This document shows positions 31,760 through 63,215 of a DNA stretch of 64,000 nt, piece by piece. The notes under the pieces are model-generated. The model searched no databases. It worked only from the letters and a program-made list of their open reading frames with translations, and was not told where the DNA came from. Where the stretch lies: assembly GCA_030678995.1 (NCBI GenBank), contig JAUXTQ010000011.1, positions 1 through 64,000 of the forward strand, in the 5' to 3' direction. Position 1 is the first letter of the stretch; each line of letters starts with the position of its first letter. The position numbers and the translations under genes were made by a program. This DNA comes from Caulobacter sp. Its GTDB lineage: Bacteria > Pseudomonadota > Alphaproteobacteria > Caulobacterales > Caulobacteraceae.

Positions 31760-31773
31760 TTGATCTGTCGCAA
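31760..31773 (-). promoter_or_regulatory. FNR/FixK-type box upstream of the Spy-like gene
   Basis: On the minus strand TTGCG-ACAG-ATCAA, the same half-site variant as at 10643. Centre 80 bases before the Spy-like start. Confidence 0.55.
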
Positions 31774-32608
31774 ACTCCGCTCCGGCCAGAACGTTCCGGT
31801 CTGGAGGCGGGACAGGTGGTTTCTGATCGTTTGACTGTCAGATCACCGGCCCATGAGGCGTTGCCGATGCGGGCTTTCGAGCAAACGGATCACTCGCCCG
31901 GGAGCGGAGGTTCTGAACGTCGGCGATGAGTTCAGGCGCGAACTTGACGGGACCATCCTGTTGGATAGTTTTGCGCAACCACGATCCCGCCGACGGCTGC
32001 GGGTCCGCGCCGATCTGCGCAACCACGATAGGGTCAACCTGGTCGTCAACGAAACTCCGAACCGGAGGTCGCATCCGCGCGGGCCGCCGCCCCTCATTCC
32101 CACTCGATTACTTGAATGTCCGCAACATTTTGTTTTTGCTAGCAATTTTCATGAGCATCACACTCTACACCGACCCACAAGCCGACAAAATACTGAGGTA
32201 TTGATTTAGTTGATGAATATGGCTTGTATAAAATTTGCGTGATGGCGCTATCTTTCGAGACCTATTTCGAGGGTCAAGCCTATTGAAGGCCAAATCCGGG
32301 ATCGGAGTTACTCGATAGTTCAGGACGGATATTACCGCAGAATATCCTGACGTCGCCCCTCCGCAACCTGATCAACAATTCGCCTCTCTCATCATCGTCC
32401 GCTTGGCCGGTTCCCGAAAGCGCTGAAGGCGAGGGTCGTGTGTAGTGGCGCGGCATGGCGCCGGCCTCCGTGCGACTGCCCGCACTAGCTGGGGACATTC
32501 GCGAATCGGCGCTGTGACAGCGATGCTGCCGCCTTTCAAGCGCTTTGACTTGTATCCCGAGAAGCAGGCCCTTCGCCCTGCCTACGCCCGCCGGTCCGCA
32601 GCGCTCGC
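31774..32608. other. gene-free stretch with an AT-rich patch
   Basis: About 830 bases without a convincing gene. Several short open frames exist on both strands (for example 31926-32204 plus and 31838-32074 minus), none recognisable. Bases about 32125-32260 are strikingly AT-rich for this genome, and ggatatt/aatatcc at 32327-32347 form a spaced inverted repeat. The stretch precedes the antitoxin gene and looks like degraded or foreign DNA. Confidence 0.5.
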
Positions 32609-32644
32609 TTGTAGGATGTCAGAAACAGAACTATTTTTCTGACA
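32609..32644 (+). promoter_or_regulatory. promoter and inverted-repeat operator of the AbiEi-like gene
   Basis: TTGTAG (32609-32614) and TATTTT (32632-32637) are 17 bases apart, a plausible -35/-10 pair. Overlapping them, tgtcagaaa (32617-32625) and tttctgaca (32636-32644) form a perfect 9-bp inverted repeat with a 10-base spacer, ending ten bases before the ATG. AbiEi antitoxins are known to repress their own promoters through such repeats. Confidence 0.65.
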
Positions 32645-32654
32645 CAGAAGAACC

Positions 32655-33248
32655 ATGCAAGTCCTCGCCGAACAGATCATGGAGCGCGCCAGGGCGCTCC
32701 CCGAAGGGACGCCGATCGCGGCCAAGGCGCTGTTGCACCTGGGCAGCCGCGCCGCCGTGGATCAGGCATTGTCGCGCCTTGTCCGCCGAGACAGACTCCT
32801 TCGCGCCGGACGGGGTCTCTATGTCCGTCTGGTAGAAAGCCGCTTCGGCGTACGGACCCCTGCGGTCGAAAAGGTCGTGCGGGCCGTCGGCGAGCAGCGC
32901 GGAGAGGTCGCCGCCTCCAGCGGCGCGGCGGCGGCGAACGCCCTCGGCCTGACAACCCAGACGCCCATCCGAACAGTCTATCTGACCAGCGGGCCGAACC
33001 GAACGCTCAGCCTCGGCAAGCAGACCGTCGAGTTCAGGCATGCACCCGCCTGGCAACTCTTGCTGGCCGATCGCCCGGCCGGCGAGGCCATCCGCGCCCT
33101 GGCCTGGCTGGGCCCCGAGAAGGCCGGGACGGCGCTCGCCCTCCTCAAGCGGAAGCTGGGGCCTTCGGCGTTTGGCGAACTGGTCTCGGTGGGCCCGCGC
33201 CTGCCGACCTGGCTGGCCCGCTCCGTCAGTCAGGCGGCACACGCCTGA
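32655..33248 (+). CDS. DUF6088 / AbiEi-type antitoxin, apparently orphan
   Basis: A 197-residue protein. The N-terminal winged helix (RARALPEGTPIAAKALLHLG, then SRLVRRDRLLRAGRGLYV) and the C-terminal domain (VEKVVRAVGEQRGEVAASSG, RTVYLTSGPNRTLSLGK) match DUF6088 proteins, antitoxins of type IV AbiE systems. The partner AbiEii nucleotidyltransferase normally follows directly; here only a 39-codon remnant does. Promoter and palindromic operator sit just upstream. Confidence 0.8.
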   Translation: MQVLAEQIMERARALPEGTPIAAKALLHLGSRAAVDQALSRLVRRDRLLRAGRGLYVRLVESRFGVRTPAVEKVVRAVGEQRGEVAASSGAAAANALGLTTQTPIRTVYLTSGPNRTLSLGKQTVEFRHAPAWQLLLADRPAGEAIRALAWLGPEKAGTALALLKRKLGPSAFGELVSVGPRLPTWLARSVSQAAHA

Positions 33249-33365
33249 GGCATTCTCAGGCTGTCGGACCAGGACCACTTTGCGGTCCAGGATGTGATTA
33301 GGGTGCCTGACATCGCCAACGATTTCGCGCGCCTGAGAATGGCGCTCGCCGAGCGTTTCGCCTGA
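33249..33365 (+). pseudogene. possible C-terminal remnant of an AbiEii-like toxin gene
   Basis: Directly after the antitoxin stop and in the same frame, 38 codons end in VPDIANDFARLRMALAERFA then TGA. The end resembles the C-terminal helix seen in AbiEii-type nucleotidyltransferases, but the match is short. No start codon or catalytic part is present. The following 235 bases up to hsp20 contain nothing I recognise. Confidence 0.3.
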
Positions 33366-33600
33366 CGCAGGCCCTGGCGGTCGCGGAAAAGAAGCCCAGC
33401 CTTCGATTGGCAACAGCGAGTTTCTCACCGGTCCCGGCGAGCAACCTTCCCGCCCACGGCAAACGCACGTGCGGTCATGCCGATTTGGCCGGACGTGCGA
33501 CCAACCGCGCATCTTGGTTCGGGTGGACAGCACGGACGAGAGCGAACCGCCGAGCGCCACGAAAGCCACAGCGCGCGACAGTCCGACCTCCTGGCAGAGG

Positions 33601-34071
33601 CTATTTCGCAGACTGGATTTCGATGGTCTTGGCGACGGCGGTTCCGTCCTTGGGCGCCAGAATCTTCAGCACGCCCTCGGCCATGGTCGCCTTGATCTTG
33701 TCGGCATCGACGCTGCGCGGCAGGGTGATCGAGCGCGAGAAGGCGCCGTAGCTGCGTTCGGAGAGGCGGTAGTTGTCCTCCTTGACCTCCTTCTCGGCCT
33801 TCTTTTCCCCGCTGACGGTCAGGACATCGTCGTCGATGTCGATCTTCACGTCGTCCCGGGTCATGCCCGGCAGTTCGACCGTCAGTTCGACGGCGTCGCG
33901 GCTCTCCTGAATTTCCATCCGGGGCGAGAGCTCAAGTTCCGTGAAGTCTTCCCAGCCGGCGGCGAGCTGGTCGAATAGACGGTTGAATTCACGCTGCACG
34001 GGCGCGAACGCATGGGTCGCCGAGCGTTGCAGACTGGGCAGGAACTGCTTGGAGTGCGGGTGGGCGGTCAT
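33601..34071 (-). CDS. Hsp20/alpha-crystallin small heat shock protein
   Basis: A 156-residue ATP-independent holdase. The alpha-crystallin domain spans about residues 45-145: RMEIQESRDAVELTVELPGM, DDVLTVSGEKKAEKE, YGAFSRSITLPRSVDADKI, then GVLKILAPK. An N-terminal arm with FDQLAAGWEDF precedes it; the final IEIQ resembles the I-x-I/V tail. ATG 34071 follows AAGGAG by six bases; the longer frame from 34170 crosses the FixK box and is not protein-like. Confidence 0.94.
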   Translation of the reverse strand: MTAHPHSKQFLPSLQRSATHAFAPVQREFNRLFDQLAAGWEDFTELELSPRMEIQESRDAVELTVELPGMTRDDVKIDIDDDVLTVSGEKKAEKEVKEDNYRLSERSYGAFSRSITLPRSVDADKIKATMAEGVLKILAPKDGTAVAKTIEIQSAK

Positions 34072-34489: not shown

Positions 34490-36247
34490 ATGCCCTGGGC
34501 CACTCTCCGCAAGACCCCGTCGGATCGGGCCAGCGCCAATCTGGGCGACTACGAGACGGCGATCGCCAGTTTTTCCTGGGACCAGGCTCGGGGCGAACTG
34601 GCCGGGTTTCCCGATGGCGGCCTCAACATCGCGCACGAGGCCCTCGACCGGCAGGTTCAGGCCGGGCGCGGCGCGCAGCTGGCCCTGCGCTGGATTGGTC
34701 GGGACGATGCAGTGCGGGACTTCACCTATGCGCAGCTGACCGCCCAGGCGAACCGCTTCGCGAACGTCTTGGGCTCGCTCGGCATCGGCAAGGGCGATCG
34801 GGTCTACGCCCTGCTGGGTCGCACGCCGGAGCTCTATGTCGCCGCGCTGGGAACGCTCAAGGCGGGGGCGGTCTTCACGCCGCTGTTCTCGGCGTTCGGG
34901 CCGGAGCCGATCCGGGCCCGGATGGAGATCGGCGAGGCGAATGTGCTGGTCACGTCACAGGCGCTGTATCACCGCAAGGTGGAGGCCTGGCGGGCCGAAT
35001 TGGGCAGTCTGAGACAGGTGCTGCTCACCGACTGCGCCGCCGAAGCGCCCGCCGGGACGATCGCCTTGGCCCCGGCCATGGCGCGGGCGGCCGAGGCGTT
35101 CGAGACCGTCCGCACCGGGCCCGAGGACATGGCGCTGCTTCACTTCACCAGCGGCACGACCGGGAAGCCGAAAGGTGCGGTTCACGTGCACGAGGCGGTG
35201 GTGGCGCACCATATCACCGGCCGCACGGCCCTCGATCTGCGGCCGGGCGACATCTACTGGTGCACGGCCGATCCGGGCTGGGTGACCGGAACGTCCTACG
35301 GCATCATCTCGCCGCTGACCAACGGCGTCACGCTGGTCGTCGACGAGGCGGAGTTCGACGCCGAGCGCTGGCGGACCATCCTGCGCGAACAGAAAGTGAC
35401 GGTCTGGTACACAGCGCCGACCGCCATCCGCATGCTGATGCGAGCCTGGGCCCAGGATCCCCGCCCGTTCGGGGTCCCGGATCTGCGATTCATGGCCAGC
35501 GTCGGCGAGCCGCTGAACCCCGAGGCCGTGGTCTGGGGCCTGCAGGCCTTCGGCCGACCTTTCCACGACAATTGGTGGCAGACCGAGACCGGCGGGATCA
35601 TGATCGCCAACTTTGCGGCGATGGACATCAAGCCTGGCTCCATGGGCCGCCCCCTGCCCGGCGTGAGCGCCGGCATCGTCGAGCGATCGCCCGAGGGCGA
35701 CATCCGCGAACTGGAGACGCCGATGGCCCTGGGCGAACTGGCGCTGCGGCCAGGCTGGCCGTCGATCATGCGGGGCTACCTCCACGAGGAGGCGCGCTTC
35801 CGCAAATGCTTCGCCGGCGGCTGGTACCTGACCGGCGACCTGGCGATGCGGGATTCCGACGGCTACTACTGGTTCGTCGGACGGGCCGACGACGTGATCA
35901 AGAGCGCCGGCCACCTGATCGGACCCTTCGAGGTCGAGAGCGTGCTGATGGAGCATCCGGCGGTCGCCGAGGCGGCGGTGATCGGCCTGCCCGACCCGGT
36001 GTCGGGCGAGGTGGTCAAGGCCTACGTGGCCCTGAAGGCGGGACTGGACGCCAGCGAGGCGCTGCGGCGCGAGCTGCTCGGACATGCCCGCAAGCGGCTG
36101 GGCGCCGCGGTCGCCCCCAAGGACGTCGCCTTCCGCCTCAACCTGCCCAAGACCCGCAGCGGCAAGATCATGCGCAGGCTGCTCAAGGCCCGCGAGCTGG
36201 GCCTGCCCGAGGGCGACCTCTCCACCTTGGAAAGCGAGGAGCGATGA
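34490..36247 (+). CDS. acsA: acetyl-CoA synthetase-like acyl-CoA ligase (AcsA type)
   Basis: A 585-residue ANL-superfamily ligase that would activate acetate or another short acid to its CoA ester. Motifs: P-loop [19 protein letters not shown] near residue 220, WWQTETGG near 365, [11 protein letters not shown] and the hinge [21 protein letters not shown] near 470, and the acetylatable lysine region [14 protein letters not shown] near 560. Similarity is to the AcsA branch. ATG 34490 lies two codons after a TTG that could also serve. The stop overlaps the next start, so it is coupled to the E1 gene. Confidence 0.88.
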
Positions 36248-38247
36248 CCGACACCGCCCTGAAGCCGCACCTCTCCCACGCCCATGTCGCCGAACAGCTC
36301 GGCCGGATGATCCGTATCCGCGCTTTCGAACAGGCCTGCGCACAGGCCTACACACAGGAGAAGATTCGCGGGTTCCTGCATCTCTATGACGGCGAGGAGG
36401 CCATCGCCGTCGGCGTCATCCCCCTGCTGGAGGCGCGCGACCGGGTCGTCGCCACCTACCGCGAGCATGGCCACGCGCTGGCCCGCGGCCTGTCGATGAA
36501 CGCGGTCATGGCCGAGATGTTCGGCAAGGCGGCCGGCTGCAGCGGCGGACGCGGCGGCTCGATGCATCTGTTCGACCGGGCGGCGAACTTCTATGGCGGC
36601 AACGCCATCGTCGGCGGCGGTCTGCCGGTCGCCGTCGGGCTCGCGCTGGCCGACCACATGCGGGGGGAGGACAACGTCACCGCCTGCTTCTTTGGCGAGG
36701 GCGCGGTCGCCGAGGGTGAGTTTCACGAGAGCCTGAACCTGGCGGCGCTGTGGGACCTGCCGGTGCTGTTCGTCTGCGAAAACAACCACTACGCCATGGG
36801 CACGGCCCTGGAGCGCTCGGAGTCGGAGACGGACATCCACGGCAAGGCCGAGGCCTACAGGATCGTGTCAGAGGCGGTGGACGGCATGGACGTGGTGGCC
36901 GTGGAGGCGGCGGCGCGTCGCGCCATCGCCGCCATCCGCGAAACCGGCAAGCCCTATTTCCTCGAGTGCCGCACCTATCGCTTCCGGGCCCACTCGATGT
37001 TCGACGCCCAGCTCTATCGCGACAAGGCCGAGGTCGAGGCCTGGAAGTCAAAGGACCCGATCACGCGGTTCCGCGACTGGGCGCTGTCGGCGAACCTGAT
37101 TCACGCTGACGACGTGGCGCGGCTCGAGGCGGAAGCGGCGGCCGAGGTGCAGGCCGCGGTCGCCTTCGCCGAGGCCGCGCCCCTTGAGCCGGTCGAGAAT
37201 CTGATGAAACACATCTGCGCGTCTGAACGGCCTCCCGCGCCCCTGCCGGTGGCGCTGACGGCGCCGGCGCAGGAGACAACTTATCGCGAGGCCGCCCGCC
37301 AGGCGATCCGCGACGCGATGCTGCGCGACGACCGCATGTTTCTGATGGGCGAGGACGTCGGGAAATACGGCGGCTGCTACGCGGTCTCCAAGGGGCTGCT
37401 GGACGAGTTCGGTCCGGACCGGATCCGCGACACGCCGCTGTCGGAAGCGGGGTTCACCGGCGCCGGCCTGGGCGCCGCCATGGCCGGGATGCGGCCCATC
37501 GTCGAGCTGATGACGGTGAACTTCAGCCTCCTGGCCCTCGACCAGATCCTCAACACCGCCGCCACCATCCGGCATATGTCCGGCAACCAGTTCGGCTGTC
37601 CGCTGGTGATCCGCATGGCGACCGGCGCGGGTCGCCAGCTCGCGGCCCAACACTCCCACAGCCTCGAGGGCTGGTACGCGCACATCCCCGGTCTGCGCAT
37701 CCTCGCGCCGGCGACGGTTGAGGACGCGCGCGGCATGCTCTGGACCGCCCTGCAGGAGCCCGATCCCGTGCTGATCTTCGAGCATGTGATGCTCTACAAT
37801 CGCACCGGGCCGCTGTCGCCCGACGCCGGGGCCGTGGACATCGACCGGGCGGCGATCCGTCGCCCGGGCAAGGATGTGAGCCTGATCACCTACGGCGGCT
37901 CCCTGTGGAAGACCCTCGAAGCCGCCGAAGCCCTGGCCGGCGAGGGGATCGACGCCGAGGTGCTGGACCTGCGAGTTCTGCGGCCGCTCGATGACGCGGC
38001 GATCCTCGCCTCGGTCCGCAAGTGTCGCCGCGCGGTGATCGTCGACGAGGGCTGGCGCTCGGGCTCGCTGGCCGCCGAGATCGGCATGCGCATCGTCGAG
38101 CAGGGGTTCTTCGACCTCGACGCGCCGCTGGCCCGGGTCTGCAGCGAGGAGGTCCCGATCCCATACGCCCGCCATCTGGAAGACGCGGCGCTGCCCCAGT
38201 CCGACCGGATCGCCGCGGTCGCCCGGTCCATGCTTGGCCGGGCCTGA
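36244..38247 (+). CDS. 2-oxoacid dehydrogenase E1, fused alpha and beta subunits
   Basis: A 667-residue thiamine-diphosphate enzyme decarboxylating a 2-oxoacid and passing the acyl group to lipoyl-E2. Residues 1-325 are the alpha part: [29 protein letters not shown] and the ThDP motif [15 protein letters not shown]...CENN, with GEG in place of the usual GDG. Residues about 340-667 are the beta part: [31 protein letters not shown], the ALDQILN region and the C-terminal transketolase domain. The substrate (pyruvate, acetoin or branched-chain oxoacid) cannot be fixed. An open frame extends upstream but only shadows acsA. Confidence 0.88.
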
Positions 38248-38249
38248 TC

Positions 38250-39449
38250 ATGGCCGAGTTCCTCATGCCCTCGCTCGGCGCCGACATGGAAGCGGGCACG
38301 CTGGTCGAATGGCTGGTCAAGCCCGGCGACGCGGTGAAGCCAGGCGACATCGTCGCCGTGGTCGAGACCCAGAAGGGCGCCATCGAGATCGAGATCTTCG
38401 AGGCCGGAACGGTGCAGCGGTTTCTGGTCGAGCCCGGCGCCACCGTGCCAGTGGGCACTCCGCTCGCCCTGATCGAGGCCGAGGGGGAGGCCGTCGCCGC
38501 AGCCCCGCCGGCGCGACCTGCTCCAGCTGGACCCGCCGGGCCCTCGCCACCCCTTCCGCCACCGCCACCGCCACCGCCGCCGCCGCCCTCGCTCGCCGCC
38601 AGCGCCCCATTGCCGACGGCCGGCCCTCTCCGCATTTCCCCGGCGGCCCGAAAGCTCGCGTCCGAGCGCGGCGTCGATCCGGCGACGGTGCGCGGAACCG
38701 GCCCGGGCGGCGCCATCCAGTTGGCGGACATCGAGGCGGCGTCCACCCCCGCGCCGCCGCCCGCGAGGCCGGAGGCGGCGTTCGATTTCAGCCAGATGCG
38801 CGCGGCGATCGCCGCCGCCATGTCCCGCGCAAAGCGCGAGATCCCTCACTATTACCTGTCCGAGACCATCGACATCGAGGCGGCGAGCAACTGGGTGACC
38901 GCAGCCAACGCCGACCGTCCGCCGGACCGGCGTCTTCTATTGGGCTGCCTCTTCGTCAAGGCGACCGCCGTGGCGGCGCGAGCCTATCCGGAGTTCAGCG
39001 GCCTGTTCGAGAACGGCGCATTCCGGGCGAGCGCCCCCGCCCACGTCGGCGTGGCGATCGCGCTTCGCGGGGGCGGCCTCGCGGCCCCGGCCATCCATGA
39101 CGCCGCCGACCTGCCGCTGGACACACTGATGGATCGGATGCGGGACCTCGTCGGGCGGGTTCGCGCCGGTCGCTTCCGCAGCTCCGAGATTGCCGATCCG
39201 ACCATCACCGTCACCAGTCTGGGCGATCGCGGCGTGGAGTCGCTGTACGGGGTGATCTACCCGCCTCAGGTCGCCATCGTGGGCTTCGGCAAGGCGGCCC
39301 TGCGCCCCTGGGTGGTGGACGGCGTCATCCGGCCGCGCCAAGTCGTCACCATCACGCTCTCCGCCGACCACCGGGTGAGCGACGGCCATCGCGGCGCGCT
39401 GTTCCTCGCGGAGATCGGGCGGCTCCTACAGCATCCGGAGGCCCTGTGA
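38250..39449 (+). CDS. 2-oxoacid dehydrogenase E2 (dihydrolipoyl acyltransferase)
   Basis: A 399-residue acyltransferase core. The lipoyl domain (residues 1-78) has its lipoyl lysine in VVETQKGAIEIE, slightly unlike the usual ETDKA. A Pro-rich linker with about a dozen consecutive prolines follows, then the E1/E3-binding domain (RISPAARKLASERGVDPATV) and the catalytic domain ending in the active site SADHRVSDGHRGALFL. The catalytic domain is compact. It begins three bases after the E1 stop. An E3-binding domain is present although no E3 gene is nearby. Confidence 0.9.
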   Translation: MAEFLMPSLGADMEAGTLVEWLVKPGDAVKPGDIVAVVETQKGAIEIEIFEAGTVQRFLVEPGATVPVGTPLALIEAEGEAVAAAPPARPAPAGPAGPSPPLPPPPPPPPPPPSLAASAPLPTAGPLRISPAARKLASERGVDPATVRGTGPGGAIQLADIEAASTPAPPPARPEAAFDFSQMRAAIAAAMSRAKREIPHYYLSETIDIEAASNWVTAANADRPPDRRLLLGCLFVKATAVAARAYPEFSGLFENGAFRASAPAHVGVAIALRGGGLAAPAIHDAADLPLDTLMDRMRDLVGRVRAGRFRSSEIADPTITVTSLGDRGVESLYGVIYPPQVAIVGFGKAALRPWVVDGVIRPRQVVTITLSADHRVSDGHRGALFLAEIGRLLQHPEAL

Positions 39450-39706
39450 GCGACACCGAAATCCTCGCCGTGATCCGCGACGAACTCGCGCGCCTGGCGC
39501 CCGAGGTCGAGTTCGACTCGCTCGACCCAGCCCTCGACCTGCGCGAGCAGGCCGACCTCGACTCGATGGACTTCCTCAACCTGGTCACGGCGCTGCACCA
39601 TCGGCTGGGAGTCGATATCCCCGACGCTGACGCCGCCAAGGTCGCCACGATAAACGGGGCGGTCGCTTATCTCACCGGAAGGCGGGGGATGACACCCCCG
39701 GCCTGA
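39446..39706 (+). CDS. acyl carrier protein
   Basis: An 86-residue ACP with the phosphopantetheine serine in DLDSMDFLNLVTAL (Ser37 region), an acidic four-helix protein that carries acyl groups as thioesters. It starts with GTG overlapping the E2 stop. An ACP closing an E1-E2 operon is uncommon: it hints that the acyl group made or activated here is loaded on a carrier, which is inference. Confidence 0.85.
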   Translation: MSDTEILAVIRDELARLAPEVEFDSLDPALDLREQADLDSMDFLNLVTALHHRLGVDIPDADAAKVATINGAVAYLTGRRGMTPPA

Positions 39707-41729: not shown

Positions 41730-41782
41730 CGATACCTCCCAGGATGCGCGATGCATCATCTGTCATTCCGACGCCTCCAACC

Positions 41783-41796: not shown

Positions 41797-41853
41797 GGCG
41801 CGGTCGCGGCGCGGCGGTCAGTGTCGTCTCTCCCAGAGACGAGGGTGGATCCC

Positions 41854-44150: not shown

Positions 44151-44161
44151 GGGACCTCCGG

Positions 44162-44617: not shown

Positions 44618-44647
44618 GGCGGCACGCCTGTCCAAGGATTGATCTCG

Positions 44648-54311: not shown

Positions 54312-56990
54312 TCATTCTCCCGCGCCGTCCGTCCCGGCGCGTTCGATGCGCACGGCGGTCACCTTGTATTCCGGAGTTCCGACCAAGGCGTCTCGATGCG
54401 GGCCCGTGAGGCGGTTGAGGTGCACGGCGGGATCGTGGAAAGTCGCGAACGCCACGCCCGCAGGGATTGAGGGATCGAGCCGTGTTGGGAGGCTGGCCGA
54501 GCCGTGACGGCTCGTAACGCACGCGAGGTCGCCGTCCGTCAACGCGAGCCCTCGGCCATCGGCGGGCGAGATGTCGAGCGTATCCGTCGGGCGTAGCTGG
54601 ATGTTGGAGGTGCGCCGGCTCATGTTCCCGACATTGAACTGGTAGAGCGACCGCCCCGTCGTAAGCAGGAAGGGGTAGTCAGCATCGACGGCCTCGGGCG
54701 TCGGTGAGTAGTCGACGGCGTGAAGCGCGGCCCGCGGTCGCGAGGCGAACCTCTCGACGTGCAGGACCGCCGTCCCGGCGTCGCTTTCGTCGCGGCAGGG
54801 CCACTGCAGGCCGCCGTGCTCCAGGCGGGCGTAGCTTATCCCGGCGCCCTCCGGCCAGACGCCGCGGATCTCCTCCCAGATCTCGCCGGGCGCGGCGTAG
54901 GTGAACTGCCCGCCAAACCCCATGCGCCCAGCGAGCGCGCATATGATCTCCCAGTCCGCCCGGCAGGCGCCGGGCGGGTCGATCGCGCGCCGGACCCGCT
55001 GGATACGGCGCTCGCCGTTCATGAAAGTGCCGTCCTTCTCGAACGTGGACGCGGCGGGCAGAACGACGTCGCCGAACCGGCTTGCGGTCTCGGTCATGAA
55101 CAGGTCCTGGACGATCAGGAATTCGAGGCGGCCCAGGGCCTCCTCCACCCGCCGCTCCTGTGGAAGCGTCGCCAGGATGTCGTAGCCGATCACCCACAGG
55201 GCCTTCAGCTCGCCTGCGGCGGCCGCATCGATCATCGCCATGAGGTGGAGGCCGTGGGTCCGGGGTAACGGAGCGCCCCAGGCCTCCTCGAACAACGGTC
55301 TGCGCTGCTCAATCGGGACGGAGCCGGTCAGGATTCCGGGATCGCAGCCCATGTGGGCGGCGCCCTGGACATTGTTCTGCCCACGCAGCGGATTAATTCC
55401 AGCGCCCTCCCGGCCGAGGTTGCCGGTGAGCAGCGCGAGATTGACGAGGGCCATCACCCCTTCGCTGCCCTGGACATGCTCCGTGACGCCCAAGCCATGG
55501 GCGCAGTAGGAGGGGCCTCCCGTTGCGTACAGCCGCGCCGCCTCGCGGATTCCTTGGGCGGAAACGCCACAGATTCCGGCGGCGCGCTCGGGCGTCCATT
55601 CCCGGAGGAAGACGGACAACGATTCGAACCCGTCAACCCGGCGCCGGATGAAAGCCCAATCGACCAGGCGCTCGGCAATGACCACATGGGCCATCGCATT
55701 CAGCAAGGGTATGTCCGTTCCAGGCCGCACGGGAAGATGCAGCCGGGCGACCTGGGCCAGTTCGGTCCGGCGCGGATCGATGACGATCAGGTCCGCCCCG
55801 CCGTGTAGGACCTGCCGACGGATGCGAGCGCCCAGGACCGGGTGGCACTCCAGCGGATTGGCGCCGACCACGAGGATGGTGCGGGCCTTTTCGATATCGT
55901 CGAAGCTGTTGGTGGATGCCCCCGTTCCCAGCATCGTCTTCAACGCCTTGGCGCTCGGGGTGTGGCAGACCCGCGCGCAGCAATCGACGTTGTTCGTGCC
56001 GAGTACGATGCGCGCGAACTTCTGCGTGAGGTAGTTCTCCTCGTTGGTGGCGCGCGCCGAGCCGAGGACACCTATGGCGTCGGGGCCGAATCGGTCTCGG
56101 ATGCGGGTTAGTTCGGTGGCGCAGGTGTCGAGGGCCGCGTCCCAGGCGGCCGGCTGCCAAGCGCCTCCTCGCCTCAGCTGCGGCTGCAGCAGGCGGTCGG
56201 GAGCATGGGCGAACTCGAAGCCATAGCGGCCTTTGGCGCAGAGATGGCCTTTGCTGACGGGCGCATCGAGGACGGGCCTGGCGGCGACGAGCCGGCCCTG
56301 ATTGGTCCCCACTTCCAGCTCGCAGCCCACGCCGCAGTAGGCGCAAACCGTCCGCGTCCAGTCCTGCGGCGGCTCGGCCTGGGCATCGACAATCGCCCCC
56401 GTCGGGCAACTGTCGGCGCAAGCGCCGCAGCTCACGCAGCCGCCCTCGATCATCAGGGCGCCCTGGGCGGGGACGATCTCGACGTCGAGCCCCCGTCCGA
56501 GCGCATGCCACACGGACTGGCCCTGCAGCTCGTCGCAGATGCGAGCGCAACGCATGCATTGGATGCATTGGCTCATATCGACCCGGATCGCCGGCACGGA
56601 ATTGTCGCACCGCGCCGGGTCGGCGGGCGCGCCCGAAGGCTCCACGCCATGGTCACGCATGAGGCGGTGGAGTTCCTTGTCGGGATGCGCCGCCGCAATT
56701 TCCGGAGATATCCTCGCCGCGTACCATCGGAGCGTCGTCCGCCGGAACCGCTCGAGCGCCTTGGCGCGGGCGGTGACGACCATGCCTTCACGCACCTTGG
56801 TGGCACAGGCCGGCACGAGCCCGGGCATGCCCTTGACCTTCACCAGGCACAGCCGGCAGCTCGCCACCGGGTGCAGGCGAGGATCGTGGCAGAGGGAGGG
56901 CAAGGGGTCGCCGAGCCGCCTGGCGGCCTCCAGGATCGTCGATCCCTCGGGGGCCTCGACGCGCCGCTTGTCGATCATCAGGCTGGGCAT
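54312..56990 (-). CDS. molybdenum-dependent formate dehydrogenase, catalytic alpha subunit
   Basis: An 892-residue oxidoreductase converting formate to CO2. The N-terminus is NuoG-like: 2Fe-2S ligands (SLCHDPRLHPVASCRLC), a His-Cys cluster, and two 4Fe-4S sets (CIQCMRCARIC and CVSCGACADSCPTGA). The molybdopterin domain begins with its own 4Fe-4S motif (CAYCGVGCELE). The metal-ligand cysteine is in CCARVCHTPSAKALK, so it is a Cys, not selenocysteine, enzyme. No diaphorase subunits (fdsB/fdsG) or fdhD are adjacent, so the electron acceptor is open. ATG 56990 is used; GTG 57020 is possible. Confidence 0.9.
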   Translation of the reverse strand: MPSLMIDKRRVEAPEGSTILEAARRLGDPLPSLCHDPRLHPVASCRLCLVKVKGMPGLVPACATKVREGMVVTARAKALERFRRTTLRWYAARISPEIAAAHPDKELHRLMRDHGVEPSGAPADPARCDNSVPAIRVDMSQCIQCMRCARICDELQGQSVWHALGRGLDVEIVPAQGALMIEGGCVSCGACADSCPTGAIVDAQAEPPQDWTRTVCAYCGVGCELEVGTNQGRLVAARPVLDAPVSKGHLCAKGRYGFEFAHAPDRLLQPQLRRGGAWQPAAWDAALDTCATELTRIRDRFGPDAIGVLGSARATNEENYLTQKFARIVLGTNNVDCCARVCHTPSAKALKTMLGTGASTNSFDDIEKARTILVVGANPLECHPVLGARIRRQVLHGGADLIVIDPRRTELAQVARLHLPVRPGTDIPLLNAMAHVVIAERLVDWAFIRRRVDGFESLSVFLREWTPERAAGICGVSAQGIREAARLYATGGPSYCAHGLGVTEHVQGSEGVMALVNLALLTGNLGREGAGINPLRGQNNVQGAAHMGCDPGILTGSVPIEQRRPLFEEAWGAPLPRTHGLHLMAMIDAAAAGELKALWVIGYDILATLPQERRVEEALGRLEFLIVQDLFMTETASRFGDVVLPAASTFEKDGTFMNGERRIQRVRRAIDPPGACRADWEIICALAGRMGFGGQFTYAAPGEIWEEIRGVWPEGAGISYARLEHGGLQWPCRDESDAGTAVLHVERFASRPRAALHAVDYSPTPEAVDADYPFLLTTGRSLYQFNVGNMSRRTSNIQLRPTDTLDISPADGRGLALTDGDLACVTSRHGSASLPTRLDPSIPAGVAFATFHDPAVHLNRLTGPHRDALVGTPEYKVTAVRIERAGTDGAGE

Positions 56991-57086
56991 CGGCCGGTTC
57001 CCATCAGGCGAGACCTCCACCTGTTCATCCGCGCCGCCCGAAGTCTGCCCGCATCAGCGGAACTCAACCCTGCCTTCGACATCGGC

Positions 57087-57462: not shown

Positions 57463-58827
57463 ATGTCACGCGATCCGCGACCAGGCGACAGCCTGCTCCT
57501 CACCGATCTCTACCAGTTGACAATGCTTGAGGCCTATCTGGAGCACGGGCGCACCGAGACGGCGGTCTTCGAGTTCTTCATCCGCAAACTCCCCGGCCGC
57601 CGCGGCTTCCTGATGGCCGCCGGCCTGGAGCAGGCGGTGGAGTTTCTGGAAAACCTGGCCCTGTCGCCGGACGAGTTGGACTGGCTGCGGCGATCCGGCC
57701 GATTCCGCCCGGCGACCATCGACTGGCTGGCGGGGCTGCGTTTCACCGGCGACATCGATGCAATACCGGAAGGCACGGTGTTCTTCGGCGACGAGCCGAT
57801 CCTGCGGGTGACAGCCCCTCTCCCCGTCGCCCAGCTGGTCGAGAGCCGGCTGATCAACATTCTGCACTACCAGTCGCTGGTCGCCTCGAAGGCGGCGCGC
57901 ATGGTGCTGGCCGCGCCCGGGCGACGGCTGGTGGACTTCGGCTTCCGCCGGGCGCACGGGGCCGAGGCCGGGTTGATGGCCGCGCGAGCAAGCTACGTCG
58001 CCGGATTCGATGGCACGGCCACGGCCCTGGCCGGCAAACTGTGGGGCGTGCCGCTTTATGGCACCATGGCCCATTCGTTCGTGCAGTCCTTCGACGACGA
58101 GGCCGCGGCCTTCGAGGCCTTCGCGCGGGCGCGGCCGGACGGACTCACCCTGCTGATCGACACCTATGACACGGAGGACGGCGCCCGGAAGGTGACGGCA
58201 CTGGCGCCGCGGCTGAAGGCGGCCGGGATCGCCGTGGCGGGCGTGCGGCTGGACAGCGGCGATCTGGCCGCCCTCTCCCGCAGCGTACGGCGCATCCTGG
58301 ACGAGGGAGGCCTGGACGACACGACCATCTTCGCCAGCGGCGGGCTGGACGAGGACGACCTGCTCGTCCTGGTCGGCAAAGACGCGCCGATCGACGGCTT
58401 CGGCTTGGGCACCAGCCTGACCACCTCGTCGGACGTTCCCGCCCTCGACTGCGCCTACAAGCTCCAGGAGTATGCCGGACTGGCCCGCCGAAAGCTGTCC
58501 ACCGGCAAGGCGACCTGGCCCGGACGAAAGCAGGTCTGGCGTCGCTACCGCGCCGATGGCGTCATGGCCGGCGATGTCCTGTCCACCCACGACGACGCGG
58601 TACGGGGCGAGGCGCTGGTCCAGCCGGTCCTGCGCGGCGGCCGGCGGGTGGCGGTCGCACCCACTCTCTCCGAAATCCGCGAGCATGCCGCGCGCGAATT
58701 CGAGCGCCTGCCCGAGCCGCTGCGGCGCCTGCAACCCTTCGCCTACCCGGTCGAGGTCGGCGATCGACTGAAGACGCTGACCGAAGAGGTCGATCGTCGG
58801 CTCCATGTTCGGAGGGCTCCGCCATGA
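57463..58827 (+). CDS. pncB: nicotinate phosphoribosyltransferase
   Basis: A 454-residue enzyme making nicotinate mononucleotide from nicotinate and PRPP, the entry of the salvage route to NAD. Motifs: LLTDLYQLTMLEAYLEHGRT at the start, RLVDFGFRRAHGAEAGLMAA with the phosphoribosyl-acceptor site, GTMAHSFVQSFDDEAAAF, LLIDTYDTEDG, VRLDSGDLAALS and FGLGTSLTTS. First of three overlapping genes with pncA and prs. ATG 57463 gives the family start; the frame is open back to 57400. Confidence 0.93.
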   Translation: MSRDPRPGDSLLLTDLYQLTMLEAYLEHGRTETAVFEFFIRKLPGRRGFLMAAGLEQAVEFLENLALSPDELDWLRRSGRFRPATIDWLAGLRFTGDIDAIPEGTVFFGDEPILRVTAPLPVAQLVESRLINILHYQSLVASKAARMVLAAPGRRLVDFGFRRAHGAEAGLMAARASYVAGFDGTATALAGKLWGVPLYGTMAHSFVQSFDDEAAAFEAFARARPDGLTLLIDTYDTEDGARKVTALAPRLKAAGIAVAGVRLDSGDLAALSRSVRRILDEGGLDDTTIFASGGLDEDDLLVLVGKDAPIDGFGLGTSLTTSSDVPALDCAYKLQEYAGLARRKLSTGKATWPGRKQVWRRYRADGVMAGDVLSTHDDAVRGEALVQPVLRGGRRVAVAPTLSEIREHAAREFERLPEPLRRLQPFAYPVEVGDRLKTLTEEVDRRLHVRRAPP

Positions 58828-59480
58828 TTCCCCGCGCGCTCGATCGCGCCACCGACGTCCTGCTGGTGGTCGATGTGCAGAACGACTTCTGCTCCGGCGG
58901 CCGACTGGCCGTGCCGGGGGGCGAGGCAGTGGTGCGGCCGGCCGATCATCTGATGACGCGGTTCGATCATGTCGTGCTGACCCAGGACTGGCATCCGGCC
59001 GGCCATCTCTCGTTCGCCTCGGCCCATCCCGGGCGGCGGCCCTATGAAACCGTGGATCTGGACTACGGGCCGCAGATCCTGTGGCCCGACCATTGTGTCC
59101 AGGGCACGCCGGGCGCGGACTTCCACTCGGACTTGAACCTGGTCCGTGCCGAACTGGTGCTGCGCAAGGGGTTCGACCGCCGGATCGATTCCTATTCCGC
59201 CTTCTTTGAAAACGACCGGACGACAGCGACCGGCCTCGCCGGATACCTGCGGGACCGCGGCCTGCGGCGCGTGTTCCTGGCCGGGCTGGCGTTTGACTTC
59301 TGTGTGCTTTGGTCGGCCGAGGACGCCTGTCGGCAAGACTTCGCCGCGGTGGTTATCGAGGATGCTTGCCGCGCGCTGGACATTGACGGTTCGCAGGCCG
59401 AGGCGCGTCGCCGCCTGGCCGCGGCGGGAATCCCTTGCATCGCCAGTGGCGATCTCGCGGACCGGGCTGTCCGCGCATGA
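58824..59480 (+). CDS. pncA: nicotinamidase
   Basis: A 218-residue isochorismatase-fold hydrolase turning nicotinamide into nicotinate. The catalytic triad is visible: Asp in LLVVDVQNDFCSGG, Lys in LVLRKGFD, Cys in AFDFCVLWSAEDA. Zinc-binding residues lie in LTQDWHPAGHLSFAS. It overlaps pncB and prs by four bases each, so the product feeds PncB directly. Confidence 0.94.
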   Translation: MIPRALDRATDVLLVVDVQNDFCSGGRLAVPGGEAVVRPADHLMTRFDHVVLTQDWHPAGHLSFASAHPGRRPYETVDLDYGPQILWPDHCVQGTPGADFHSDLNLVRAELVLRKGFDRRIDSYSAFFENDRTTATGLAGYLRDRGLRRVFLAGLAFDFCVLWSAEDACRQDFAAVVIEDACRALDIDGSQAEARRRLAAAGIPCIASGDLADRAVRA

Positions 59481-60511
59481 CCGGGGCGCTTTCCTTCTGG
59501 TCCCCTGCGGACGGCGCCGCTCCGTTCGAACTGCCCGAGCGGGCCCGGCTCTTCGCCCTGAACGCCACCGCGGACCTGGGCGCCGCGATCGCCGGGATCC
59601 TCGGCCGCCCCCTGACCCGTCACGAGGAACGCGACTTCGAGGACGGCGAACACAAGGCGCGGTCGCTGGAGAGCGTCGGCGAGGCCGACTGCTACGTGAT
59701 CCAGAGCCTGCATGGCGGGCCGGACCAGAGCGTCAACGACAAGCTCTGCCGGCTGCTGTTCTTCATCGGCGCGCTGAAGGACGCCGGCGCGGCCCGGGTG
59801 ACGGCGGTGACGCCCTATCTCTGCTACGCGCGCAAGGACAGGCGGACCAAACCGTTCGACCCCGTCACCACCCGCTATGTGGCCGCCCTGTTCGAGGCGA
59901 TCGGCGCCGATCGCCTGGTCGCGCTGGAGGTCCACAACCCCGCCGCCTTCGAGAACGCCTTCCGGCGCCGGGCGGTGACTCTGCCGGCCGCCTCGCTGTT
60001 CGTCGATCTCGCCCTGCGCTACGCCAGCGAGCCGCTCTGCGTCCTGTCGCCCGACCCGGGTGGCGTTAAACGGGCGGAACTGTTCCGCGAGACTTTCGAG
60101 GCCAGGGTCGGGCGGCCGATCGGCAAGGCCTTCGCCGACAAACACCGCAGCGCGGGCGTCGTCACCGGCGACCTGCTGGTCGGCGATGTGGCGGGCGCGA
60201 CGGTGCTGCTCGTCGACGACCTGATCAGCACCGGCGGCACCCTGGCGCGGGCGGCGCGGGCGGCGCGGCAGGCGGGCGCCCGCCGGGTGATCGCGCTGGC
60301 GGCCCACGGGCTGTTCATGCCCGGCGCGGCCGAGGCCCTCGACGATGCGGCGATCGAACGAGTCGTCGTGACCGATGCGGTTCCGCCGTTCCGGCTGGGG
60401 CCGTCCGGGCTGGCGGGCAAGCTTGAGATCCTGCCCAGCGCGCCGCTGTTCGCGGCCGCCATTGCCCGGCTCGCCGTCGGCGCGCCGCTCACCGATCTGC
60501 TGGCCTATTGA
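59477..60511 (+). CDS. prs: ribose-phosphate pyrophosphokinase
   Basis: A 344-residue PRPP synthase. The catalytic region has ALEVHNPAAFENAF, CVLSPDPGGVKRAE and the PRPP-binding VLLVDDLISTGGTLARAA; the flexible loop is FADKHRS. It differs from housekeeping Prs (for example YARKDRRTKPFDPVTTRYVA in place of the RQDRK block) and is probably a specialised paralog. Here it would supply PRPP for PncB. Its 3' end overlaps the converging gene by 23 bases. Confidence 0.9.
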   Translation: MTGALSFWSPADGAAPFELPERARLFALNATADLGAAIAGILGRPLTRHEERDFEDGEHKARSLESVGEADCYVIQSLHGGPDQSVNDKLCRLLFFIGALKDAGAARVTAVTPYLCYARKDRRTKPFDPVTTRYVAALFEAIGADRLVALEVHNPAAFENAFRRRAVTLPAASLFVDLALRYASEPLCVLSPDPGGVKRAELFRETFEARVGRPIGKAFADKHRSAGVVTGDLLVGDVAGATVLLVDDLISTGGTLARAARAARQAGARRVIALAAHGLFMPGAAEALDDAAIERVVVTDAVPPFRLGPSGLAGKLEILPSAPLFAAAIARLAVGAPLTDLLAY

Positions 60512-61544
60512 GCAGCACGGCCAGACGGCGCGCGTCGCGGGCGGCCAGCGCCAGATAGGCCCGCGTCTGCCTGGGCCACTTCTCCGGCGTCCGGGGATTG
60601 GGCTCCAGCAGGTGGGCGATCGACAGCCGGGCCCGCAGCGTCGCGCGATAGCTTCGGTAGAACAGATAGAGCTCCGGCGGCGGTTCCTCGTGCAGGGCGG
60701 CCGTCACCCGGCGGCGCAGTCGTAACCCCGCCTCGGGCGAGCCGAGCCGTTCCGTCTCCAGGTCGAGGAAGGCCAGTTCGTCCAGGGGATCGACCGCCCG
60801 CAGGGCGGCGCTGAACTCCAGCCGGTCGATGATCTTCACCGGCGGCCCCATCCAGACATGCTCGGGCCGCAGGTCGCCGTGGGCGTCGACGATACGGCCA
60901 CGCCTGGCCCGGTCGGCCAGCAGCCGGGGGCGTTGCTCAAGAAAGCGGTGCTGGGCCGCCAGAGCGGCCCTGACCAGGCCCGGCGGGATGGCGAGACGCG
61001 GATCGAGCAGAACCCGCCGGTTCTCGACGAGCGCCGCCCTCCAACGCGAAAGATGGGCGGCCGGCGTCAGGCGGACCGGCTCGGCATGGCGATAGAAGCG
61101 GGCCAGGGTGTCGGCCAGCCTGTCCAGTTCGCCGCCGCCCAGATCGCCGGCCGCCAGCCGCGCCTCCAGCGTCCGCGACGGGTCGAGCCGCAGCATGACC
61201 ACCAGCCAGTCGACCACCTCACCGGTCCCGCCGATCTTCAGGCCATCGCCCGCCCGGGTCAGGCTGACCACGTCCCAATAGATATCGGGGGCCAGGCGCT
61301 GGTTGAGCGCGAATTCCGCCCGGCAGGCGGCCTCGCGGCGGGCCAGGGTGGAGAAGTCGAGATAGGCGAAGCGAACCGGCTTCTTCAGCTTGTAGACCGT
61401 CTCTCCGACAAAGAAGATCCACGACATATGGGTTTCGCGCCGGGTGACCGGACCGGCATGGCCGCGCCAGGCGGCGGTGTCGCTGAGGTATGCGACCTTG
61501 TCTTCGATCGACGTCTCCACGTCGCTGTCCCGTCTTGCCCGCAT
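60489..61544 (-). CDS. COG2187-type aminoglycoside phosphotransferase-like protein
   Basis: A 351-residue kinase-fold protein. It starts with IEDKVAYLSDTAAW and ETHMSWIFFVGETVYKLKKP, then DFSTLARREAACRAEFALNQ; the catalytic HGDLRPEHVWMG near residue 220 is followed by IIDRLEFSAALRAVDPLDEL. These are marks of COG2187, which is often fused to a P-loop kinase; this copy has only the phosphotransferase part. Substrate unknown. If the box at 61577 acted on it, the transcript would start almost at its ATG. Confidence 0.78.
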   Translation of the reverse strand: MRARRDSDVETSIEDKVAYLSDTAAWRGHAGPVTRRETHMSWIFFVGETVYKLKKPVRFAYLDFSTLARREAACRAEFALNQRLAPDIYWDVVSLTRAGDGLKIGGTGEVVDWLVVMLRLDPSRTLEARLAAGDLGGGELDRLADTLARFYRHAEPVRLTPAAHLSRWRAALVENRRVLLDPRLAIPPGLVRAALAAQHRFLEQRPRLLADRARRGRIVDAHGDLRPEHVWMGPPVKIIDRLEFSAALRAVDPLDELAFLDLETERLGSPEAGLRLRRRVTAALHEEPPPELYLFYRSYRATLRARLSIAHLLEPNPRTPEKWPRQTRAYLALAARDARRLAVLLNRPADR

Positions 61545-61576
61545 GACTAAATCTAACGGCCCGGTCGGCGCCTGGC

Positions 61577-61590: not shown

Positions 61591-61645
61591 TGCCGCGCCC
61601 GTGGGATGCGGCAGTCTACCGCCGACGCGGGATGCGAGCCTGAAG

Positions 61646-62098
61646 ATGAGCGACCAAAACCTTCGAGACGCCGTCATGGCCGAAGTCCGGCGACTGGGCG
61701 GGTCGGCGTTGATATCCGCTTCGGTCCAGGACGGGGTGGTGACCCTCACCGGCGAGGTTCCGGAGCAGCGGCTGCGAACGCTGATCGAACAGGAATTGCT
61801 GCGGCTTCCAGCGGTCTGCGATGTTTACAACCAACTGCGCGTATCCGCTCCCCCCGGCGCCCTGCCCGCCCAGCTCCTGGCCCTGCTCGCCCGCGAGGGG
61901 GCTTGCGCCACCGGCATCGATATCCGGGCCGTGGGGGGCATCGTGACCCTCTCCGGCCAGGCGGAGAGCTGGTTCGACCGGGACGCCGCCGAGCGGCTGT
62001 CCTGGACGCTTCCGGGCGTCCAGGCCGTGGTCAACCGGCTGACCCTTCCGGCCGGAGCCGTGGATCCGGCGGGCGAAGACGAGGGATCGGCCGCGTAG
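61646..62098 (+). CDS. BON domain protein, two domains
   Basis: A 150-residue protein with two BON domains, about residues 8-68 (SASVQDGVVTLTGEVPEQRL) and 78-135 (IDIRAVGGIVTLSGQAESWF). BON domains bind phospholipid or other surfaces; many are periplasmic, but no signal peptide is seen here, so the protein is probably cytosolic. ATG 61646 is chosen because the longer frame starts inside the FixK-type box. Confidence 0.85.
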   Translation: MSDQNLRDAVMAEVRRLGGSALISASVQDGVVTLTGEVPEQRLRTLIEQELLRLPAVCDVYNQLRVSAPPGALPAQLLALLAREGACATGIDIRAVGGIVTLSGQAESWFDRDAAERLSWTLPGVQAVVNRLTLPAGAVDPAGEDEGSAA

Positions 62099-62243
62099 GC
62101 CGCATCGGGCGGCCGCGGCCAGGCAGCGACCAAATGCCGAACACAGGAACGCGACTCGACTCTCACAACTTGAAGGCGTTCCATTTGGCCGGCTAGGGCC
62201 GGGGGGTCCGGCTCAGCGCGCCGACCGAAGGGAGGGGCGCGTC

Positions 62244-62462
62244 ATGGACAACGATCGCTTCATTGTCGAACACAATATCAAGCAGTTCACGGCTCAGCTC
62301 GCCAGAGAGCAGGATGCCGAAAAGCGCCGGGTCCTTTCGTCGCTGATCGCCGAGCAGGAGTCCAAGCTACCCGCGGCGGGATCACGGGCCAAGGGCCCGG
62401 ATTTCCCCCCCCCCCGTTTGAGGATGGGACCGTCCGTCGCGGGCCTCGATCCAGGAGGCTGA
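62244..62462 (+). CDS. small protein of unknown function with a C10 tract
   Basis: A 72-residue protein. The first 43 residues (DNDRFIVEHNIKQFTAQLAR, then EQDAEKRRVLSSLIAEQESK) form charged helices like small proteins of alphaproteobacterial stress clusters. GGGAGGGG precedes the ATG. A run of ten C (62405-62414) interrupts the 3' part: one C fewer would end the protein right after it, one more would give a different tail. The conserved part is upstream of the run. Confidence 0.65.
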   Translation: MDNDRFIVEHNIKQFTAQLAREQDAEKRRVLSSLIAEQESKLPAAGSRAKGPDFPPPRLRMGPSVAGLDPGG

Positions 62463-62485
62463 TGACCGCGCGATCCGTCGCGATT

Positions 62486-62499
62486 TGACGCCGATCAAC
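62486..62499 (+). promoter_or_regulatory. FNR/FixK-type box upstream of the three-BON gene
   Basis: TTGAC-GCCG-ATCAA, nine of ten positions; centre 76 bases before the start at 62568. Confidence 0.65.
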
Positions 62500-62567
62500 G
62501 CAGCCTTCCGGTGATGGTGAACAGCTCCGATCAGCCGCGAAGAAACGTGGCTGATTGGAGCAGGACA

Positions 62568-63215
62568 ATGGACGACAAATCCATCAAGGGACTGGTGCTC
62601 GACGAACTGGAATGGGAACCGAGCATCGACGCCGCCGACATCGGCGTGACTGTCGAGGCCGGCATCGTGCGGCTCACCGGCCATGTCGCCAACTACGCTC
62701 AGAAGCTTGCCGCCGAAACGGCCGTGAAACGGGTCAAGGGCGTGCGGGGCTATGTCGAGGACCTGGAAATCCGCCCATTCGCGCCCTCGTTCACGGACGA
62801 GGCAATCGCCGGGCGAGTGGCCAACATGCTCGATTGGGACGTCACGGTTCCGAAGGGGTCGGTGAAGACCAAGGTCGAGAGCGGCGTCGTGACGCTCAGC
62901 GGCCAGGTCGACTGGCAGTACCAGCGGACGGCGGCCGAACAGACCGTGCGCGGCCTCAAGGGCGTGCGCGGGGTAGGCAACCAGATCCAGGTGAAGCCCC
63001 ACCTCCAGGCCGCGGACATCAAGCGCCGCATCGAGGACGCCCTGAAGCGCCAGGCCGACCTCGAGGCCGACAAGATCCGGGTAAGCGTCGATGGGGACAA
63101 GGTCCGCCTCGACGGCAAGGTGAAGGCCTGGTTCGAGCGTGACCTGGCCGAACGCGCGGCCTGGGGCGCCCCTGGCGTCCGGGCGGTCGACGACCACGTG
63201 ACCGTCGGCTTCTAG
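62568..63215 (+). CDS. BON domain protein, three domains
   Basis: A 215-residue protein with three BON domains, about residues 5-65 (GVTVEAGIVRLTGHVANYAQ), 78-140 (KVESGVVTLSGQVDWQYQR) and 150-212 (RVSVDGDKVRLDGKVKAWFE). No signal peptide. ATG 62568 has GGAG seven bases upstream. This three-BON type is common in stress regulons with Hsp20 and universal stress proteins. Confidence 0.88.
   Translation: MDDKSIKGLVLDELEWEPSIDAADIGVTVEAGIVRLTGHVANYAQKLAAETAVKRVKGVRGYVEDLEIRPFAPSFTDEAIAGRVANMLDWDVTVPKGSVKTKVESGVVTLSGQVDWQYQRTAAEQTVRGLKGVRGVGNQIQVKPHLQAADIKRRIEDALKRQADLEADKIRVSVDGDKVRLDGKVKAWFERDLAERAAWGAPGVRAVDDHVTVGF

Follow-up and report, generated by a model that had tools for sequence, protein, structure and literature searches.

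The closest known system to the locus described in this work is the lxa locus of Burkholderia, a 50-gene low-oxygen cluster containing genes for universal stress proteins (Usp), alpha-crystallin, BON-domain proteins and phosphofructokinase (PMC6127331). It is induced at low oxygen and required for anoxic persistence (PMC6127331, PMC9104464), an Anr-like protein has been suggested as its regulator, and homology with the DosR regulon has been noted for alpha-crystallin and phosphofructokinase (PMC6127331). Strain H111 of B. cenocepacia does not have lxa; its micro-oxia tables include a PolX and a CBS protein (PMC3759415), and a nicotinate phosphoribosyltransferase (NAPRT, or NAPRTase) gene is listed in the anoxic transposon-sequencing table (PMC9104464). 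The present locus lies in the second half of a 64,000-base stretch of Caulobacter sp. DNA (bases 1-64000 of contig JAUXTQ010000011.1, here C49), referred to as the window. A preliminary description had read the region between 31.7 and 62.6 kb as a block of stress genes whose transcription units are marked by an FNR/FixK-type palindrome and which forms one low-oxygen dormancy programme.

In Alphaproteobacteria, the FNR/FixK consensus is given as TTGAT-N4-ATCAA (PMC2908626) or as TTGANCNNGATCAANG (PMC4999443). Hsp20, a CBS-domain protein and a Zn alcohol dehydrogenase are predicted FixK targets, UspA is an FNR target and OmpW an FnrL target by chromatin immunoprecipitation (PMC2908626), and FnrL controls Usp and cold-shock genes in Dinoroseobacter (PMC5398030). 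For its four Caulobacterales genomes, the available part of PMC4999443 gives FixK only and no FnrN. All statements on the cited papers refer to parts of their texts.

The results suggest that the block is an lxa-like low-oxygen survival locus with FNR boxes, carried as cargo by an island at guaA and activated by an FnrN-type protein of the host encoded on contig C11; we consider this reading, as a whole, to be likely. The low-oxygen programme of the preliminary description is thereby supported and appears largely right, oxygen control and dormancy being the parts that we infer. In the proposed mechanism, the island would be chromosomal, with the 3' end of guaA as its probable integration site, and the window would contain the larger part of its cargo. 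This cargo would comprise a chaperone, BON envelope proteins, a ribosome hibernation factor, NAD and phosphoribosyl pyrophosphate (PRPP) salvage, a second gene run of pyruvate dehydrogenase (PDH) type, formate oxidation, PolX, a membrane protease and cyclic glucan. The FnrN-type protein would bind the boxes, which would lie near -41.5 of predicted transcript starts, when oxygen is absent, and the units would be activated together. The protein would accordingly carry an Fe-S cluster, bind DNA, respond to oxygen and act by activation rather than repression, while the block would serve survival and the island would have moved as one piece.

FNR boxes in the window and the assembly

All seven TTGA-N6-TCAA sites of the preliminary description were found (Table 1), the last one starting at 62485 instead of 62486, and positions 1-34134 of the window contain no exact site. 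Dinucleotide shuffles of the window hold a mean of 0.16 sites, consistent with the earlier expectation of far less than one per 64 kb, and none of 100 shuffles reached the observed seven; the same half-sites at 19 other spacings (N0-N19) yielded three matches in total. An eighth C49 box lies beyond the window, at C49:64704, before a phosphoribosyltransferase gene. By independent open reading frame (ORF) calls, all seven exact boxes are intergenic or at a 5' end, as had been stated for almost all sites, and they do mark most transcription units of the block. The distance of 60-80 bases to gene starts, measured from box centre to most plausible start codon, holds for most boxes, yet not for those at 34269 (214.5 bp) and 45458 (96.5 bp to a small ORF and 376.5 bp to the DUF2267 gene). 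The box at 41783 is 60.5 bp from the start of the gene for the M50 metalloprotease with a CBS domain (M50-CBS), or 30.5 bp with an upstream ATG, and 31.5-64.5 bp from that of PolX.

The draft assembly comprises 3.62 Mb in 67 contigs, with a completeness of 89.5% and a contamination of 3.45%. A scan of the whole genome, as the preliminary description had proposed, found the box 41 times and the reversed control pattern 4 times; of the 41 boxes, 8 are in C49:34135-64717, 10 on C11 (40 kb) and 23 spread elsewhere. As its share of the 41, the 30.6-kb stretch of C49 would be expected to hold 0.35 by a hand estimate, and the exact pattern is far denser in the block than in the genome at large, contrary to the scan outcome that the preliminary description had named as refuting. 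According to our own ORF calls, 33 of the 41 are intergenic or at 5' ends, and 8 are deep inside called ORFs. Among 12 genomes of the same genus, own included, the ratio of boxes to controls ranges from 13:25 to 41:4, the own genome presenting the strongest excess. Larger excesses occur elsewhere in the family (e.g., 74:3 in G036), so that a rich FNR/FixK regulon is no special trait of the own genome.

The boxes of the block agree with the published alphaproteobacterial FNR/FixK consensus and stand upstream of target units above chance; together with the local density and the recurrence, in other genomes, upstream of part of these genes, this bears out their identification as FNR/FixK-type palindromes. 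A de novo palindrome count was discarded as evidence, as GC-rich words score equal or higher in the window; on C11, TTGA-N6 ranks first in such a count (8 versus at most 5 in shuffles). The class of TTGAT-N4-CGCAA sites was also dropped: two had been reported, but a third match exists at 10643 on the minus strand, outside the block, and sites with one mismatch show no enrichment in the block, numbering 9 in 31.5-64 kb and 7 in the flank at 1-31.5 kb.

Candidate regulator

As the preliminary description held, the candidate regulator lies outside the window. Crp/Fnr helix-turn-helix matches above the cut-off are found on C11 (two), C63 and C22, and cNMP-domain matches on C58, C11 (two) and C63, with none of either kind on C49. 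The fitting gene, C11:27909-28796, encodes an FnrN-type protein with C68-x2-C71-x7-C79 and C167, four putative Fe-S cysteines, and the recognition helix ETVSR, which has the form E-xx-SR. An alignment of 8 rows was made from the own protein and the seven others that passed a recognition-helix filter, of 30 loci tried. The four cysteines are kept in all seven FnrN-type sequences (own and 6 relatives) and are missing from the FixK-like row, while E-xx-SR is present in 8/8 rows by selection, the rows having been chosen on that motif. FnrN occurs in three same-genus genomes at 63-72% identity with all four cysteines; boxes lie near it in all three, and in G179 and G111 the gene adjoins ompW. Given this FnrN-type protein on C11 and no FixK above the family cut-off in the assembly (89.5% complete), "FNR" is, judging by sequence, better supported than "FixK" as the regulator of the boxes.

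The FnrN gene lies beside nitrate-respiration genes; C11 carries narK, the start of narG, nnrS, nrdJ, ric-like, moaB and ompW-like genes, a pfkB-type kinase, a Ca-ATPase-like pump, a phosphoenolpyruvate (PEP) synthase and a Usp. C11 and C49 are separate contigs; the tetranucleotide correlations of C11 with the left flank of the window, 0.94 and 0.96, give no sign of contamination, this being a weak test. The second C11 regulator is FtrB-like, scoring above the cut-off of the Caulobacter FtrB model, with the recognition helix ENLSR and without the cysteine cluster; the match to this model is the chief sign, within the sequence, of a Caulobacter-like genome. Three exact FNR boxes lie between the FtrB-like gene and narK (L025 15404-15581).

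Recurrence of cargo and boxes in other genomes

The M50-CBS search gave 8 matches at E 0.001 in 199 family genomes, strong only in the own genome and in G190. In 385 class genomes, own included, 30 have an M50-CBS match at 1e-30 and 20 an acsA-like match at 1e-120, the acsA-like gene being found on plasmid records as well; the plasmid searches returned 42 and 33 matching records, from which seven regions were taken. Neighbourhoods were compared for 20 of the 29 non-own M50-CBS class loci plus G190, and for 17 acsA-like loci plus three further stretches. In the box test, an exact TTGA-N6-TCAA was sought from -350 to +90 of each gene, with other spacings as control. The L092 M50-CBS and L048 Ca-ATPase genes, whose projected starts fall before the locus edge, were left out, the overlapping L106/L180 were counted once, and loci L190-L192 stand outside the main counts.

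An exact box is upstream in 7/21 acsA-like loci versus 0.08 per control spacing (7/23 with L191 and L192), and in 3/4 DUF2267, 4/7 Usp-like and 3/5 Hsp20 loci versus 0-0.17 per control spacing; Hsp20 box positions in relatives are approximate, their starts being projected from an over-long ORF. HPF (the hibernation factor) has one in 1/3 loci, OmpW in 1/1 and Ca-ATPase in 1/1. For M50-CBS the count is 3/24 (L098, L048 and G190), the G190 box (C6:84709, some 84 bp upstream of the projected start) having been added by hand to a scripted 2/23. No exact upstream box was found for NAPRT (0/3), PRPP synthetase (0/2), hyp351 (0/2), FnrL-like (0/3), PEP synthase (0/1) and FdhA (0/1), and L191 and L192 have none within 350 bp of the acsA-like gene nor at their Hsp20 and NAPRT genes. 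Hence, the box is kept before orthologous genes elsewhere only in part: the comparison of promoters in relatives, proposed in the preliminary description, favours its reading for acsA-like, DUF2267, Usp-like and Hsp20 genes, but not for NAPRT and most M50-CBS genes.

Azospirillum, Cupriavidus and further Alpha- and Betaproteobacteria share a large part of the cargo. G290 has Hsp20, part of the PRPP synthetase, DUF2267, the run of acsA, E1, E2 and acyl carrier protein (acsA-E1-E2-ACP), HPF and NAPRT within 20 kb, and G288 has acsA-E1-E2-ACP, M50-CBS, Ca-ATPase and Hsp20 with boxes. Over whole loci, 5 boxes were counted in Cupriavidus sp. USMAHM13 versus 6 over 12 control spacings (0.5 per spacing), 4 in Cupriavidus oxalaticus versus 3 over 12, 1 in Burkholderia stagnalis, where PolX lies beside NAPRT, versus 0 over 12, and 4 on a conjugative plasmid of Burkholderia savannae versus 0 over 6. 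The Azospirillum brasilense locus encodes its own Crp/Fnr protein, in which C-x2-C-x7-C is present without E-xx-SR. This protein (L182 27819-28682) has HVCR in place of E-xx-SR, in a cargo locus without TTGA-N6-TCAA boxes. The differing recognition helix, as read from the protein sequence, is a possible reason for the missing boxes. A de novo box search in the Azospirillum loci gave no word that stood out.

A probable guaA island

The extent given in the preliminary description probably needs revision, in that the block appears to belong to the cargo of an island of 54.7 kb that spans contig positions 32096-86816 and adjoins guaA at its 3' end. A tyrosine integrase gene (C49:84363-86522) adjoins the 3' end of guaA (C49:86814-88796), a serine recombinase gene is at C49:79641-81263, and RepB/ParB genes lie at 76.7-81.3 kb. 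The ends of guaA can serve as attachment sites of islands; at the opposite border, a 13-base word equal to the guaA end is a possible left attachment site (Table 1). All eight C49 boxes are inside the inferred island, and the degenerate site at 31760 is outside. Since C49 has no RepC match and carries dnaB, engA, guaB and guaA, it looks chromosomal; a repABC replicon was rejected, there being no RepC (PF03428) match anywhere in the assembly. A search at E 0.001 in 38 other genomes of the genus gave no match to the M50-CBS gene, the number of genomes being from a separate listing assumed to be the same genome sample.

No repeat of the guaA end of at least 14 bases was found at the other border, an ungapped mismatch-tolerant search with the guaA end did not single out the 32096 site, and no tRNA that could serve as integration site was found in the window. 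Around the possible left border, positions 31843-33600 form a gene-poor stretch of lower GC content with a DUF6088/AbiEi-like protein (32655-33248). The genes to the left of 32096 include those for LTXXQ and DUF302 proteins.

Alternative explanations

That the boxes result from chance or composition has next to no probability, given 7 observed versus 0.16 expected, 41 versus 4 genome-wide, and boxes recurring before orthologous genes. The 8 genome sites deep in ORFs do approach the chance number (about 9 in 3.62 Mb, a hand estimate based on the window shuffles), and single boxes could still be due to chance, but for the box set this explanation is refuted. It is also conceivable, although we regard it as unlikely, that another Crp/Fnr protein mainly binds the boxes, either a FixK that the draft does not contain or the FtrB-like protein of C11, which would subject the block to FixLJ, nitric oxide or another signal instead of direct control by oxygen via FnrN. 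The FtrB-like gene, with three boxes between it and narK, agrees with this, as do the FixK-only Caulobacterales genomes and the near-identical boxes of both regulators in the available part of PMC4999443. However, no FixK exceeds the cut-off, the FtrB-like protein lacks the cysteine cluster, and the four-cysteine FnrN is present both here and in three same-genus relatives.

The block could instead be an ancestral chromosomal low-oxygen region lost by relatives, with no mobile island. Such a history would be consistent with the shortness of the guaA repeat, the lack of a tRNA in the window and a tetranucleotide correlation of 0.93 between 34-64 kb and the left flank; still, the integrase beside guaA, the serine recombinase and the RepB/ParB genes, the absence of M50-CBS from the 38 same-genus genomes (among 199 family genomes, just one other has a strong match), and related loci on records filed as plasmids, three of them typed mobilizable or conjugative, make it improbable. 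Several observations nonetheless weigh against an FnrN-controlled island locus. At 89.5% completeness, FixK or FixLJ may be missing. The guaA-end word was found by eye, and its length is reached by 125 of 400 random anchors, although a shared word of at least 13 bases with as many A/T letters occurs in only 1/400. An exact upstream box is lacking in 14/21 acsA-like loci (16/23 with L191 and L192), 21/24 M50-CBS loci and 3/3 NAPRT loci. Two Azospirillum loci sharing much of the cargo have no exact box at all (A. brasilense, 0 versus 3 over 12 control spacings; A. oryzae, 0 versus 2), and the AT-richer locus of Sulfitobacter sp. SK012 presents a weaker excess, with 7 boxes versus 1.5 per control spacing (18 over 12).

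Gene content of the block

Pfam matches confirm the gene set named in the preliminary description, i.e., Hsp20, BON proteins, hibernation factor, NAD salvage, PolX, CBS protease and cyclic glucan. The features are presented in Table 1.

Table 1. Genes, boxes and possible attachment site of the block, in window positions.
Feature	Position	Strand	Remarks
Hsp20 small heat-shock protein	33601..34071	-	Pfam PF00011; start from box-distance analysis
acsA-like AMP-binding ligase, first of acsA-E1-E2-ACP run	34490..36247	+	domain match; name acsA from related records
PDH-type E1, both halves in one ORF	36265..38247	+	
Dihydrolipoamide acyltransferase E2	38022..39449	+	mechanical ORF; true start probably later
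Acyl carrier protein	39446..39706	+	
M50 metalloprotease with CBS domain	40572..41759	-	
PolX-type DNA polymerase with PHP domain	41821..43575	+	
Ribosome hibernation factor (S30AE) fused to cold-shock domain (CSD)	43572..44165	-	
baeRF/Host_attach family protein	44162..44635	-	
DUF2267 protein	44648..45088	-	
Cyclic glucan synthase type (NdvB-like, GH94)	45468..54011	-	start from box-distance analysis
Formate dehydrogenase alpha/NuoG-like molybdopterin oxidoreductase	54312..57020	-	54% identical to gene annotated fdhF
Nicotinate phosphoribosyltransferase	57463..58827	+	start from box-distance analysis
Isochorismatase-family hydrolase	58824..59480	+	
Ribose-phosphate pyrophosphokinase-like	59435..60511	+	
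Hypothetical protein	60489..61544	-	no Pfam or NCBIfam match; recurs in related loci
BON-domain protein 1	61646..62098	+	start from box-distance analysis
BON-domain protein 2	62568..63215	+	three BON matches; start from box-distance analysis
FNR box TTGACGCAGGTCAA	34135..34148		centre 70.5 bp before Hsp20
FNR box TTGATCAGGCTCAA	34269..34282		214.5 bp before acsA-like gene
FNR box TTGATCGCGCTCAA	41783..41796		between divergent M50-CBS and PolX genes
FNR box TTGACCAGGATCAA	45458..45471		heads run of small ORF, DUF2267, baeRF and HPF/CSD genes
FNR box TTGACTCTGATCAA	54074..54087		69.5 bp before NdvB-like gene
FNR box TTGATACTGCTCAA	57387..57400		69.5 bp before NAPRTase gene
FNR box TTGACGCCGATCAA	62485..62498		76.5 bp before second BON gene
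Degenerate box TTGATCGAGCGCAA	61577..61590		62.5 bp before first BON gene; weak
Degenerate box TTGATCTGTCGCAA	31760..31773		before LTXXQ gene; weak, outside inferred island
13-base word ATTCCCACTCGAT, equal to 3' end of guaA (contig 86816)	32096..32108		possible left attachment site

The acsA-like ligase, PDH-type E1, E2 and dedicated acyl carrier protein (34490-39706) are consecutive here and in most of the related loci fetched. Such runs are sometimes behind FNR boxes. Outside the block, the window encodes a DnaB replicative helicase whose LAGLIDADG-like insertion points to an intein (1552-4134), and, in the left flank, two proteins of the unknown family DUF6880 (21428-22792 and 26943-28958).

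Comparison with known systems

The mycobacterial DosR regulon includes hspX, pncB2, nrdZ, ctpF, pfkB, narK2, Rv2625c (M50-CBS), hrp1 and nitroreductases. Its regulator, DosR, is a response regulator from a different family and has a different box. The parallel with the block is one of cargo function, not of control. With guaA-integrated islands, the block has in common a tyrosine integrase next to the guaA 3' end and, possibly, a copy of that end on the opposite side; the differences here are the shortness of this repeat and the low-oxygen cargo. In comparison with the alphaproteobacterial FixK/FNR regulon (PMC2908626), the box is the same and the targets overlap; that work lists its targets in regulon tables, whereas here they are packed in a probable mobile island and in the contig around the regulator. 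The four-cysteine FnrN-type protein of the own genome and three same-genus relatives also qualifies the finding of FixK only in four Caulobacterales, as given in the available part of PMC4999443.

A broader and more tentative possibility is a dormancy programme that is mobile, a "plug-in" lacking a regulator of its own, in which islands or plasmids with FNR-boxed stress and energy-maintenance cargo would give any owner of FNR or FixK a DosR-like survival in one step, and Azospirillum-type lineages would have been re-wired, perhaps to an Fnr-like protein with N-terminal cysteines and the HVCR helix. If true, anoxic survival would be not only ancestral but acquirable as a ready-wired island, with a wiring readable from sequence, and a link would exist between Burkholderia lxa, the FNR/FixK regulons of Alphaproteobacteria and, in terms of function, mycobacterial DosR.

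As for lxa itself, which was compared by its described content, in the parts available, and not gene by gene, the likeness lies in the clustering of Hsp20, BON, stress and metabolism genes. Hsp20, NAPRT, PRPP synthetase, phosphoribosyltransferase, HPF or BON genes are clustered here and shared with Burkholderiales and Azospirillum loci. These related loci carry much of the same set, one of them with a "BCAM0308 family" protein, a number inside lxa. The scan of the island genes gave no universal stress protein, the Usp genes with boxes being on C11 and C8. No lxa-like locus in Alphaproteobacteria and no link of FNR or lxa to mobile islands was found among the open-access papers listed, as judged from titles and abstract starts. 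The block differs from lxa in having NdvB, formate dehydrogenase and the acsA-E1-E2-ACP run, and in its alphaproteobacterial host and its location on a probable island at guaA. As an FNR-boxed locus, probably island-borne and served by an FnrN encoded elsewhere, it would thus represent a new alphaproteobacterial variant of the lxa-like locus.

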